From: Haladaptatus paucihalophilus DX253
Lineage (GTDB): Archaea > Halobacteriota > Halobacteria > Halobacteriales > Haladaptataceae
Reading direction: 5' to 3'
DNA: 64,000 bases
NCBI RefSeq assembly: GCF_000376445.1
Contig: NZ_AQXI01000003.1
Location: 1-64,000, forward strand
Part shown: one piece after another, positions 42,312-49,722 of the stretch
Layout: the number at the start of each line of letters is the position of its first letter
How positions within the stretch are numbered: the first letter of the stretch is position 1
The notes under the pieces: model-generated
Seen by the model: only the letters and a program-made list of their open reading frames with translations
What the model was told of the DNA's origin: nothing
Database searches by the model: none
Made by a program: the position numbers and the translations under genes

Positions 42312-43562
42312 ATGGCTGACAGTAATACGGGACAGGCGAACGGTTTCAAGACGACTCGGCGCGCCGTTCTGGGTGCGGTTGGGGCGGGAGGTATCGCCGG
42401 GGTTGCTGGCTGTCTCAGCGACATCGGCGGCGGAGGCGGCGGGAGCGATACGGTAAAGTACGGGGTTCTCAACCCGATGACCGGACCGTACGCGGGACTT
42501 GCGAAGGAACAGAGGAAGGGGGCGAAACTCGCGGTGAAGACGATAAACGACAGCGACGAGTACGATTTCACCATCGACGCGCAGTACGGTGACACGCAGG
42601 CGGACGCGGAAACCGGGCAGCAAGAGGCGCGGAAATTGGTCGAACAGCACGGCGCGTCGTTCGTCATGGGGGCGATTTCCAGTTCCGTTGCGTTGGGCTT
42701 GAACGAGTTCGCAACGGAGGAGAGCGTGGTCTACTCCCCCGGAGCGGCGGCCATCCCCATCACGGGTGCGAACTGTAACAAGTACGTGTTCCGCTGTGAG
42801 ACGAACACGGCCCAAATCGCCGAGGCGTGTTCCGAATGGACGCTCAACAACCTCGGGAGCAACGTCTGGTTCCACATCGCGGATTACGCGTACGGGAAAT
42901 CCGTCCTCAGCGAGTGGCGCTCGCGGATGAAGGGGTCGAGCGCCGACTTCTCGGAAGCGGGCGTCACGCGGGCCAAACTCGGCGCGAAGAACTTCGATTC
43001 GTTCATCAGTCAGATCAAGAACTCCGACGCCGATGTCGTCGTCGTCGGTTCGACGGGCGGCGACCTCATCGAGTTCCTCAATCAGGCGAACGCGCAGGGA
43101 CTCACCGACCAGAAGAAGGTGATGACGACCACGGGGTCGTTCCAAGTAATTCGCGGGGCGCTCGGCGAGAAAGCCGACGGAGTTTACAGCGGGACGCGAT
43201 ACGTCCCCAAAATCGACGCGGGCGACAATCAGGAGTTCGTCGAAGCGTACAAGAGCGCCAACGATAGCGAACCCGGCAACTTCGCGCGGGTCGCGTACGA
43301 CTCCATCCGCATGGTCGCAAACGGAATCAAGGAGGCCGGAAGCACCGACCCCGACGACGTTGCCGACACGCTCGGCGGACTGAAGATGCAGTCCCTCTTC
43401 GGGGAGAACGAGTTCCGGAGCTGTGACCATCAGGCGAAAAACCCGGTCTGGGTCGGACAGAACGTCTACGAGAGCGGTCCGATGGCCGACGTGAAACTCA
43501 TCGAGAAGGTGAGCGGCGACGACGCGATACCGCCGTGTGACCAAACCGGCTGCCAGCTCTGA
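42312..43562 (+). CDS. Branched-chain-type ABC substrate-binding lipoprotein
   Basis: This 416-residue protein is a LivK/AmiC-type periplasmic-binding protein, held outside the cell membrane. The signal is of Tat lipoprotein type: TTRRAVLGAVGAGG then VAGC (lipobox), with a Gly/Ser-rich linker after it. The ligand-binding domain starts at about 40 (KYGVLNPMTGPYAG). The paired Cys residues in the first lobe may form a disulfide. It is the first gene of the operon followed by permease and ATPase genes. ATG 42312 is chosen because an AT-rich TATA-like element lies 15-25 bases upstream; the ligand is unknown. Confidence 0.92.
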   Translation: MADSNTGQANGFKTTRRAVLGAVGAGGIAGVAGCLSDIGGGGGGSDTVKYGVLNPMTGPYAGLAKEQRKGAKLAVKTINDSDEYDFTIDAQYGDTQADAETGQQEARKLVEQHGASFVMGAISSSVALGLNEFATEESVVYSPGAAAIPITGANCNKYVFRCETNTAQIAEACSEWTLNNLGSNVWFHIADYAYGKSVLSEWRSRMKGSSADFSEAGVTRAKLGAKNFDSFISQIKNSDADVVVVGSTGGDLIEFLNQANAQGLTDQKKVMTTTGSFQVIRGALGEKADGVYSGTRYVPKIDAGDNQEFVEAYKSANDSEPGNFARVAYDSIRMVANGIKEAGSTDPDDVADTLGGLKMQSLFGENEFRSCDHQAKNPVWVGQNVYESGPMADVKLIEKVSGDDAIPPCDQTGCQL

Positions 43563-43563
43563 T

Positions 43564-45537
43564 ATGGCGGGGGTATTCTTCGAACAACTCCTGAATGGGT
43601 TAACCATCGGCGCGGTGTACGTCCTGTTAGCGGCCGGTCTCTCCATCATCTTCGGCGTGATGGACGTCATCAACTTCGCCCACGGGGAGTTCTTCGCGCT
43701 CGGCGCGTACCTCGCCGTCGCCATCGTCGCCGTCGGCACCGGCGGCGGCATGTTCTGGCTCGCGTTGCTCGTCGCGCCGCTCGTCGTCGCCCTCATCGCG
43801 GCGGTCATCGAGCGCGGCACCATCCGCCCGCTCTACGGGCGAAACCCACTGTATCACATCCTCCTCACGTTCGGGTTGGTCCTCATCTTCGAGGACGTCA
43901 TCTCGTTCGTCTGGGGGGACAACGCCAAGCAGTTCGCCCAGCCACCGCTCCTCCGCGGTCCCGTCGATTTGCTCGGGTTCAGCTACTCGAAGTACAACTT
44001 CTTCGTCATCGCCATCGGCGTCGTGATGGCCGTCGGAACGTGGCTCCTGTTGAATCGCACGCGGTTCGGCCTCGTCGTTCGCGCTGGTGCACAGGACCGC
44101 GAGATGGTTCGTCACCTCGGCATCGACATCGACCGCTACTACACGTTGGTCTTCGCTTTCGGGGCGTTCCTCGCCGCGCTCGCCGGAATCGTCCTCGGCG
44201 CGAAACAGAGCGTCAACCCGGGGATGGGAAACTCGGTCATCATCCCTGCCTTCGTCATCGTCGTTCTCGGCGGATTGGGAAGTTTCCGCGGTGCGGTGGT
44301 CGGCGGGTTCGGCGTCGGTCTCATCGAGACGTTCCTCCGGAGTCCGCCGTTCGGCTTGGACGCGTTTCTGCCGAACCTCGAAGGGTTGGTTATCTTCCTG
44401 CTGATGATCGGAGTCTTACTCGTTCGCCCGCAAGGGTTGTTCGGCAACCCCGAGTGGGAGTCCTCGGACGGCGGCGGCGAACTGCTGACCGGCGGCGGTG
44501 GCGGCGTGTTGGACGGCCAAACGCGCTTCCGTCTCGGCGCGCTCGTCGTCGCCCTCCTCGCGCTCGCACCGCTCGGAATCGGCGTCCTCTACACCTCCTA
44601 CGAGGTGAACTCGCTGCTCCTGACCACGCTGGTCTGGGCGCTGTTCGCGTTGAGCCTCGACTTCGTGATGGGCTACGCCGGACTCGTCTCGCTGGGCCAC
44701 GTCCTCTTCTTCGGATTGGGCGCGTACAGCACCGTCCTTACGGTCGAACACGGGATGCCGTCCGTCTTCGTCGCCTTGGGCGTCGGGATGGTCGTCGCGG
44801 CCCTCGTCGCGTGGGCCGTCGGCCACCTCTCGATTCGCGTCTCCGGCGTGTACTTCTCGATGATCACTCTCGGCTTCGCGGAACTGTTCTTCCAACTCGT
44901 CCAGAAGGTCGGCTTCACGGGCGGCAGCGAAGGGCTGTTCGGATTCGACCCGGTGTACGGACTCACGAGCGGGCCGGAGGTCGGTGACGTGTCCCTCCTC
45001 GGCGACATCGAACTGTACTACTACTTCGTCCTCGCCGCGGTCGTCGGGTCGTACCTCCTCGCCAGACGGATGATGAACGCGCCGTTCGGGAGCGTGCTCC
45101 AGGGCATCCGCGAGAGCGAGGAGCGCGCCTCGTTCATCGGCTACGACGTGACCGCCTACAAGCGTCGCGCGTTCGTCGTCAGCGGCGGGTTGGCGGGGCT
45201 TGCAGGCGGTCTGTCGGCGATTCACACCGGCGGCGTCTCGCCGTCAGTCTTCGCGTGGATAAACTCCGGCGAGGTCATCGTGATGACCATCCTCGGCGGG
45301 ATGGGTACCCTATACGGGCCGATGATAGGTGCGGGCGTATTCTTCGGCCTGCAGGAACTCCTGCAGTCGTTCACCGAACAGTGGCAGGGAATTCTCGGCG
45401 TCGTGTTCGTCCTCTTCGTCATTTACGTCCCGGAGGGGCTTGTCTCGGTACCGGCGATGCTTTCCCGGCACACCAACGACGAGACCGGCGGCGGTCCCGA
45501 ACCGGTCGCGGAACCCGACTCGGAGGTGAGCAACTGA
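43564..45537 (+). CDS. Fused LivH-LivM ABC permease
   Basis: This 657-residue protein joins the two permeases of a branched-chain-type ABC transporter in one chain. The first half, to about residue 315, is LivH-like (MDVINFAHGEFFALGAY and LGSFRGAVVGG are its marks). A Gly-rich linker of about 20 residues follows. The second half, from about 335, is LivM-like (VMGYAGLVSLGHVLFFGLGAY and LGGMGTLYGPMIGAG). No frameshift is seen and the frame is continuous. The stop overlaps the start of the first ATPase gene (TGATG). Confidence 0.92.
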   Translation: MAGVFFEQLLNGLTIGAVYVLLAAGLSIIFGVMDVINFAHGEFFALGAYLAVAIVAVGTGGGMFWLALLVAPLVVALIAAVIERGTIRPLYGRNPLYHILLTFGLVLIFEDVISFVWGDNAKQFAQPPLLRGPVDLLGFSYSKYNFFVIAIGVVMAVGTWLLLNRTRFGLVVRAGAQDREMVRHLGIDIDRYYTLVFAFGAFLAALAGIVLGAKQSVNPGMGNSVIIPAFVIVVLGGLGSFRGAVVGGFGVGLIETFLRSPPFGLDAFLPNLEGLVIFLLMIGVLLVRPQGLFGNPEWESSDGGGELLTGGGGGVLDGQTRFRLGALVVALLALAPLGIGVLYTSYEVNSLLLTTLVWALFALSLDFVMGYAGLVSLGHVLFFGLGAYSTVLTVEHGMPSVFVALGVGMVVAALVAWAVGHLSIRVSGVYFSMITLGFAELFFQLVQKVGFTGGSEGLFGFDPVYGLTSGPEVGDVSLLGDIELYYYFVLAAVVGSYLLARRMMNAPFGSVLQGIRESEERASFIGYDVTAYKRRAFVVSGGLAGLAGGLSAIHTGGVSPSVFAWINSGEVIVMTILGGMGTLYGPMIGAGVFFGLQELLQSFTEQWQGILGVVFVLFVIYVPEGLVSVPAMLSRHTNDETGGGPEPVAEPDSEVSN

Positions 45538-48982: not shown

Positions 48983-48990
48983 TTTAAATA
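48983..48990 (+). promoter_or_regulatory. TATA-like box of the microhalocin-like gene
   Basis: TTTAAATA is centred about 28 bases before the ATG at 49015. It favours that ATG over the one at 48994. Confidence 0.5.
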
Positions 48991-49014
48991 TCTATGGTGA
49001 TTAAAACTATATGT

Positions 49015-49722
49015 ATGACTAGAAAAAGAAAAATTAATCGGAGGAGTATTCTCAAAAAAGCTGGTGCGTCGGCGATCGGCGCTGTCGCCCTCAGTAGTAG
49101 TGGCGTCATGGCAGAGGAGCCGGAGCACGACCGGGAACTCGAAAAGCAGTATCTGAATGAGGGAGCACTTCGGAGTACGCTCGCCTCCCGCGGACACGAC
49201 GTGCTCGCTGAGCTGGCCGCACACGACATTATCGCACGACCGTCACCCGAGGTGTTCGATTTGGACACGAAACTCGACAGCACGCGAGTTGAAGCCTCGT
49301 GGGCCACCGACGGATGGACCGTCACGGAGTACACGAATCAGGAGGACGTTCGGACGGCTCATCTCATGTTTTCGAAGACAACCGACGAGTACGACCTCAC
49401 CCTTCACATCCAACCGCAGGCCGAGAAGGAGTACGCGCTGGTCGAATCCAAAGCGTCCGATGAGGAGTTCGCCATCGACCCCTCACTCGACAGGACGAAA
49501 TTCCCGCTGACGACCGACGGGGACGTGCAGGCGAGTAGTTGTTCGGACAGTTCATTCTGTACGGGAGAAATCTGCAAGGTTATCGGGGGCAGTCAGAGAG
49601 AATGTTACTCGAAACGTGCCTACATAACCTGCAATCAGCGAAACGGTAAGTGTCGCTGTTACTCGTCGGGTGAGGATTGTCCATATTCCGAAGGCCTCAA
49701 GGCCTGTTACATGTCGTGTTAG
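49015..49722 (+). CDS. Tat-exported precursor with ten-cysteine C-terminus, microhalocin-like
   Basis: This 235-residue protein begins with a Tat signal: two arginines at 9-10 (NRRSILKKAG), a hydrophobic stretch, and a possible cleavage after VMA at residue 33. A hydrophilic middle domain of about 140 residues follows. The last 62 residues (about 174-235) contain exactly ten cysteines, beginning SSCSDSSFC and ending KACYMSC. This layout is the same as the halocin C8 precursor, in which a Tat-exported protein is cut into an N-terminal immunity part and a C-terminal ten-Cys peptide antibiotic. I do not recognise this exact sequence. Local DNA upstream is AT-rich, a possible sign of transfer. 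No dedicated maturation gene is visible nearby. Confidence 0.75.
   Translation: MTRKRKINRRSILKKAGASAIGAVALSSSGVMAEEPEHDRELEKQYLNEGALRSTLASRGHDVLAELAAHDIIARPSPEVFDLDTKLDSTRVEASWATDGWTVTEYTNQEDVRTAHLMFSKTTDEYDLTLHIQPQAEKEYALVESKASDEEFAIDPSLDRTKFPLTTDGDVQASSCSDSSFCTGEICKVIGGSQRECYSKRAYITCNQRNGKCRCYSSGEDCPYSEGLKACYMSC

Follow-up and report, generated by a model that had tools for sequence, protein, structure and literature searches.

The window, by which we mean the whole stretch of 64,000 nucleotides of Haladaptatus paucihalophilus DX253 that was analysed, carries at positions 49015-49722 of the forward strand a gene whose translation gives 235 amino acids plus a stop codon. The initial annotation had read its product as a Tat signal, a middle domain and a ten-cysteine tail, and the translation bears this out. 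Residues 1-33 (49015-49113, forward strand) form the Tat-type signal peptide (RRSILKK...GVMA), which reads MTRKRKINRRSILKKAGASAIGAVALSSSGVMA with EE following and places a hydrophobic stretch behind the RRSILKK motif; R9, R10 and L13 are nearly invariant among the homologues (alignment A1), and the NCBIfam model TIGR02811 (TAT target) matches the segment weakly, at 21.4 bits and thus under its cut-off. Residues 34-169 (49114-49521, forward strand), delimited from an AlphaFold2 model and the homologues, make up a middle of about 136 residues with zero cysteines, a pro-domain and possible immunity domain. The remaining residues 170-235 (49522-49719, forward strand) constitute the C-terminal peptide, recognized from the sequence and from the even-cysteine statistic described below, with exactly ten cysteines at positions 176, 182, 187, 197, 206, 213, 215, 222, 231 and 235 (spacings 5-4-9-8-6-1-6-8-3), the terminus CYMSC, no tryptophan, and the junction motif ..DGDV-x4-C ahead of it. 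The predicted peptide of about 66 amino acids would weigh roughly 7 kDa, and microhalocins are defined as secreted and smaller than 10 kDa.

An alternative in-frame ATG lies upstream at 48994; 49015 is probably the better start, because a TATA-like box, TTTAAATA (48983-48990, forward strand, as read from the sequence), stands about 27 nt 5′ of it, as in leaderless transcripts, and the transcript is probably leaderless. The long antisense ORFs at the gene are the usual shadow ORFs that high G+C content produces in a genome. Searches of Pfam, PHROGs and PDB sequences gave no match to the protein, NCBIfam nothing beyond the sub-threshold match to the Tat segment, and a PDB search with the tail no match either. 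Elsewhere in the window, LivH- and LivM-like branched-chain amino-acid ABC permeases are apparently fused in a single ORF of 666 amino acids (43537-45537).

The gene is an insertion, and two congeners carry the empty site. By synteny comparison the segment 48882-49822 is missing from the corresponding locus of Haladaptatus sp. DYF46, where the gap between the M24 peptidase and EamA transporter genes (53 bp, compared with 941 in the window) holds no precursor gene; the locus of a second genome (G001) likewise lacks it, with vaguer borders. The M24 peptidase next to the window gene shares 93-97% identity with records assigned to Haladaptatus by name, which agrees with the host genus. The inserted stretch is poorer in G+C (52%) than the flanking genes (64-70%), and its borders showed neither an integrase nor an IS. 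That both congeners have lost the gene is less likely. L002, the best of the homologues (34% identity to the window protein), is encoded in the congener G003, some 8 kb away from this same M24 peptidase gene (G003:C5:72833-82536, L213), and the neighbourhood is possibly an insertion hotspot.

Across the Halobacteria we collected 97 distinct homologous genes that keep the same three-part plan of Tat signal, cysteine-free middle and cysteine-rich tail, so that the architecture is more than a chance arrangement. Among 99 relatives that were searched, 22 genomes gave 42 matches between them. When 391 genomes of the class were scanned with a profile, full-length matches turned up, counted from the table, in at least about 50 of them, a lower bound since seven candidates per genome were scored; many weak matches of that scan are Tat signals only. 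Single-protein scans of genome contigs and viral contigs with the window protein gave no relative, and neither did a plasmid collection. The distribution is patchy, most homologues are about 16-36% identical, and the Pfam, NCBIfam, PHROGs and PDB sequence searches pointed to no family other than Tat-signal models. Their middle domains follow the consensus ..LL..La..G.L.. / ..ta.i...... / V.Pe.d.ayA.v.p, and their tails hold from 4 to 22 cysteines, so the number ten, on which the initial annotation had laid weight, is not diagnostic. Tandem arrays of two to three precursors with differing tails occur at four loci (L098, L099, L111 and L021). The window's own genome encodes a second member on another contig (L125:6870-7694), with 14 tail cysteines, which adjoins a low-molecular-weight phosphatase-like gene and has close relatives in congeners (L029 and L032). 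Taken as a whole, the family looks like a large, so far unnamed haloarchaeal group resembling an arsenal of secreted peptide weapons.

The clearest regularity in this diversity concerns the parity of the cysteines. Their number is even in 94 of the 96 scored tails, which range from 4 to 22 cysteines (binomial P 6e-26), and in 82 of 84 distinct spacing patterns (P 2e-22); these P-values are nominal, the sequences being related, and the effect persists over very different frameworks. The middle is cysteine-free in 95 of 96 members. Even tails on a cysteine-free middle are, as far as sequence can tell, the mark of a disulfide-bonded extracellular peptide carried on a separate pro-domain, and in the window peptide the ten cysteines would apparently pair into five disulfide bonds.

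Among other members of the family, eight close pairs give tail dN/dS values between 0.06 and 0.67; these tails are under purifying selection, and among close orthologues they are about as conserved as the middle. In several distant or tandem paralogue pairs the tail diverges much faster than the middle, with indels, as in the L099 tandem pair (62% identity in the middle, 14% in the tail outside the cysteines) and the L111 pair (61% and 19%). Such faster divergence is not universal, since some pairs, for example L008/L020, have the better-conserved tail.

A search with the mature peptide of halocin C8 (HalC8) as probe recovered an identical copy in one genome (G034) together with graded homologues; among plasmids, some records bear the annotation "halocin C8-like domain-containing protein". 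The source of halocin C8 is ProC8, a precursor exported by Tat that yields HalI and a 76-aa peptide (PMC11509114), and it had been proposed that the window protein is built in the same way. The anatomy agrees. Both the halocin C8 family (TIGR04449, NF040679) and the window gene encode a single-gene precursor whose Tat export is read from the signal, with a cysteine-free N-domain of similar predicted topology, a short V/I-containing junction ahead of the first cysteine, and a C-terminal cysteine-rich peptide, in a haloarchaeal host. The proposed difference in spacing and residues was confirmed as well: the ten cysteines of HalC8 are spaced 2-7-3-7-13-7-8-8-5, unlike those of the window, and the window tail is polar and disulfide-dense whereas HalC8 is hydrophobic. 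In an NCBIfam scan TIGR04449 matched 17 of 17 HalC8-type precursors and 0 of 39 window-family members, which, with the different cysteine framework, rules out membership in the halocin C8 family. The window protein is instead one member of a large haloarchaeal family of its own, and it would work like a HalC8 precursor while lying outside the HalC8 family.

Whether the middle domain corresponds to HalI has a divided answer, as the predicted folds are alike and sequence homology is not demonstrable. A profile match between the two at 96.8% probability was rejected because it was driven by the shared Tat signal, and without the Tat segment hhalign returned a probability of 1.8% (P 0.027). Two HalC8 precursors (L049 and L046) rank first and third among about 7,500 non-family ORFs against the middle-domain profile, with E-values (0.45 and 0.76) that are suggestive only. 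In the AlphaFold models, the N-domain of HalC8 is predicted as two helices (55-66, 69-80) and a five-strand meander (92-98, 103-112, 119-126, 133-143, 149-155), that of the window protein (AlphaFold2, pLDDT mostly above 85 over residues 41-160) as three helices (37-45, 49-59, 61-69) and a five-strand meander (100-107, 113-122, 126-133, 138-145, 151-154). Foldseek/VIA comparison with the PDB left both models without a confident fold match (best Z 4.8 and 5.7); several weak matches of both are cystatin-like arrangements, which we do not use as evidence of fold identity. The profile ranks and the same order of predicted elements hint at a remote kinship of HalI and the middle domain.

A second tie between the two families is a partner gene that some members of both have in common. 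It encodes a membrane protein with an invariant YTGxxRCxxCTxxN motif (alignment A3) and adjoins the precursor at six window-family loci (in genomes G059, G096, G122, G153, G208 and G378); HalC8-type precursors of G238 and of Haloferax lucentense also have it immediately downstream, and in the latter its product is WP_004064528.1, a "hypothetical protein". Copies were located at L120:5154-5939, L110:5214-6023, L111:6232-7002, L108:3409-4257, L098:7004-7810, L157:5148-5900 and L151:6263-7018. There are about two to three copies of this gene family per genome, and about 0.14 such neighbours would be expected by chance within 1 kb of the 97 precursors, an expectation whose rate was estimated from the table in a post hoc test. 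At two loci outside model building the gene again adjoins Tat precursors, with a 14-cysteine tail (L177:2392-3357) and a 10-cysteine tail (L195:1260-2165), neither of which is assigned to the HalC8 or the window family. The membrane protein is possibly an immunity or maturation factor. ABC transporters and Hvo_1808-like lipoproteins also recur beside relatives' precursors; we give them no weight as evidence. Beside the window copy lies neither a conserved partner gene nor any of the relatives' partner families.

From these data we consider it reasonably probable that the window gene is a secreted halocin-like peptide cassette with a built-in pro- or self-protection domain, whose released tail inhibits other haloarchaea. 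What is observed, and on which this reading builds, is the anatomy, the family, the even-cysteine rule, the purifying selection on relatives' tails, the insertion, and the partners shared among relatives; for the window peptide itself we infer export, disulfide formation, cleavage, self-protection and antagonism. The precursor would be exported through the Tat pathway, its C-terminal peptide of about 60-66 residues would fold with five disulfides, and an extracellular protease would free it near ..DGDV-QASS-C, upon which it would most likely inhibit competing haloarchaea; the cysteine-free middle would serve as pro-domain and probably protect the producer, as HalI does for halocin C8. A cassette that stands alone, in a locus otherwise undisturbed, is consistent with a single gene supplying both production and immunity. 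A possible model for the release step is the unrelated protein HFX_0892/HmHapP of Haloferax mediterranei, where secreted precursors are cleaved by halolysin, an extracellular serine protease, into antagonistic peptides (PMC12893001); it differs in that its active part is N-terminal and helical, with cysteines or disulfides unmentioned in that paper. Against the halocin reading, the window protein has no sequence homology to any known halocin and its precursor has no defined cleavage site.

One sub-group of the family carries a further clue to what such peptides may become. A polyprenyl-synthase-like enzyme (alignment A4), resembling a nonaprenyl diphosphate synthase in the PDB (E 5e-7) and PF00348 (E 0.0016), is rare, with 12 copies in 391 genomes, and seven of these copies adjoin window-family precursors (L098:3431-4225, L101:5193-6041, L104:3557-4402, L105:3361-4248, L127:5561-6418, L133:6563-7414 and L138:6512-7363). 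All nine precursors at these seven loci have a tryptophan within the last two residues, compared with 6 of 87 elsewhere (Fisher 4e-9; 2e-7 with loci counted once). Conserved in the enzymes are EYYDIxDDxxDxD and, four residues ahead of the Asp of the second motif region, an invariant Gln; these are features given for tryptophan prenyltransferases in a review that also describes ComQ-ComX as a quorum-sensing pair (PMC13290415), and PalQ of Paenibacillus is specific for a C-terminal tryptophan (PMC10853753). Like ComQ-ComX and PalQ-PalX, this sub-group alone thus sets an isoprenoid-synthase-like enzyme, with a DDxxD-type motif and the conserved Gln, beside W-ended precursors; unlike them, its substrates would be Tat-exported disulfide-rich precursors in archaea. 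Among the other copies, an eighth (L228) stands beside a different Tat precursor (L228:5051-5791, reverse strand) whose hydrophobic Gly/Ala-rich tail ends in NNSWI. Two more, in two species of one genus, adjoin homologous 34-aa peptides, MSATQAVAEVELDVIEDIARRKQRDEEYAKLAPW (L230:5716-5817, forward strand) and MTAMGREGCDFEEIAADIRRRKDRDEEYARLGVW (L231:6995-7108, reverse strand), which end in ..RRKQRDEEYAKLAPW and ..RRKDRDEEYARLGVW and are candidates for ComX-like peptides in archaea. At L229 no comparable Trp-ended peptide was seen, and L232 is cut by a contig end.

A C-terminal tryptophan together with a linked enzyme was found for nine relatives, some of which may carry a lipid on the last tryptophan. 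To our knowledge, prenylation of a C-terminal tryptophan would have no precedent in archaea. The family as a whole could plausibly be, as we tentatively propose, a large and unannotated repertoire of Tat-exported peptides rich in disulfides, which diversifies while the pro-domain is shared; conotoxin precursors are arranged comparably. Part of the repertoire would be Trp-prenylated by archaeal ComQ/PalQ-like enzymes. In the window genome (G000) no ComQ-like gene was found and the window tail lacks tryptophan, so the window protein itself falls outside the prenylated-peptide group.

The same association feeds the main rival, a pheromone or other non-weapon secreted peptide. As a pheromone-like signal, the tail would be released and sensed by kin as ComX is, with the Trp-ended members prenylated, and because the ComQ-like genes sit beside all nine Trp-ended precursors of the seven loci, as well as beside the two W-ended 34-aa peptides, we regard this role as possible at least for the sub-group. 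For the window protein, which has neither tryptophan nor enzyme, we regard it as unlikely, all the more as no sensor kinase is found among the recurrent neighbours of relatives' precursors, and tails of up to 22 cysteines and such strong diversification are unusual in signals. It is similarly improbable that the tail remains attached to the middle as an extracellular protease inhibitor rich in disulfides, as an adhesin or as another surface domain, and is no weapon. Small disulfide-rich domains are often protease inhibitors, and one ORF encodes tail and middle in all homologues; the initial annotation had named a tail that stays joined in all species as a sign against a released peptide, which is trivially the case and does not discriminate, because HalC8 likewise encodes its tail in the same ORF. 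That one conserved carrier bears extremely diverse cysteine frameworks, that tandem paralogues differ in their tails and that partner genes are common to HalC8-type precursors is instead what is expected of released cargo, and the tail has no PDB match. A metal-binding tail, metallothionein-like or iron-sulfur, is very improbable in spite of a high cysteine content (21.5% of tail residues), since the even-cysteine rule, which thiolate clusters do not need, and the extracellular destination disfavour it.

As a functional class, then, the halocin-like precursor to which we give preference is known. The family, its size, the diversity of its cysteines and especially the association of one sub-group with a Trp-prenyltransferase-like enzyme were found described nowhere in our literature searches. 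The survey of Makarova et al. 2019 (mBio 10:e00715-19) reportedly offers predictions of many archaeal toxin/halocin candidates, these proteins possibly among them, and the novelty claim for the family is limited accordingly. Halocin production is described as nearly universal in haloarchaea, few halocins have been sequenced, and the sequence families known so far account for little of it. The tryptophan link predicts that the last residue of the sub-group's peptides would show the mass shift of a prenyl group, and the family, if the halocin-like reading is true, would offer haloarchaeal antagonism a genetic basis and supply salt-stable peptides rich in disulfides, in 84 distinct cysteine patterns.
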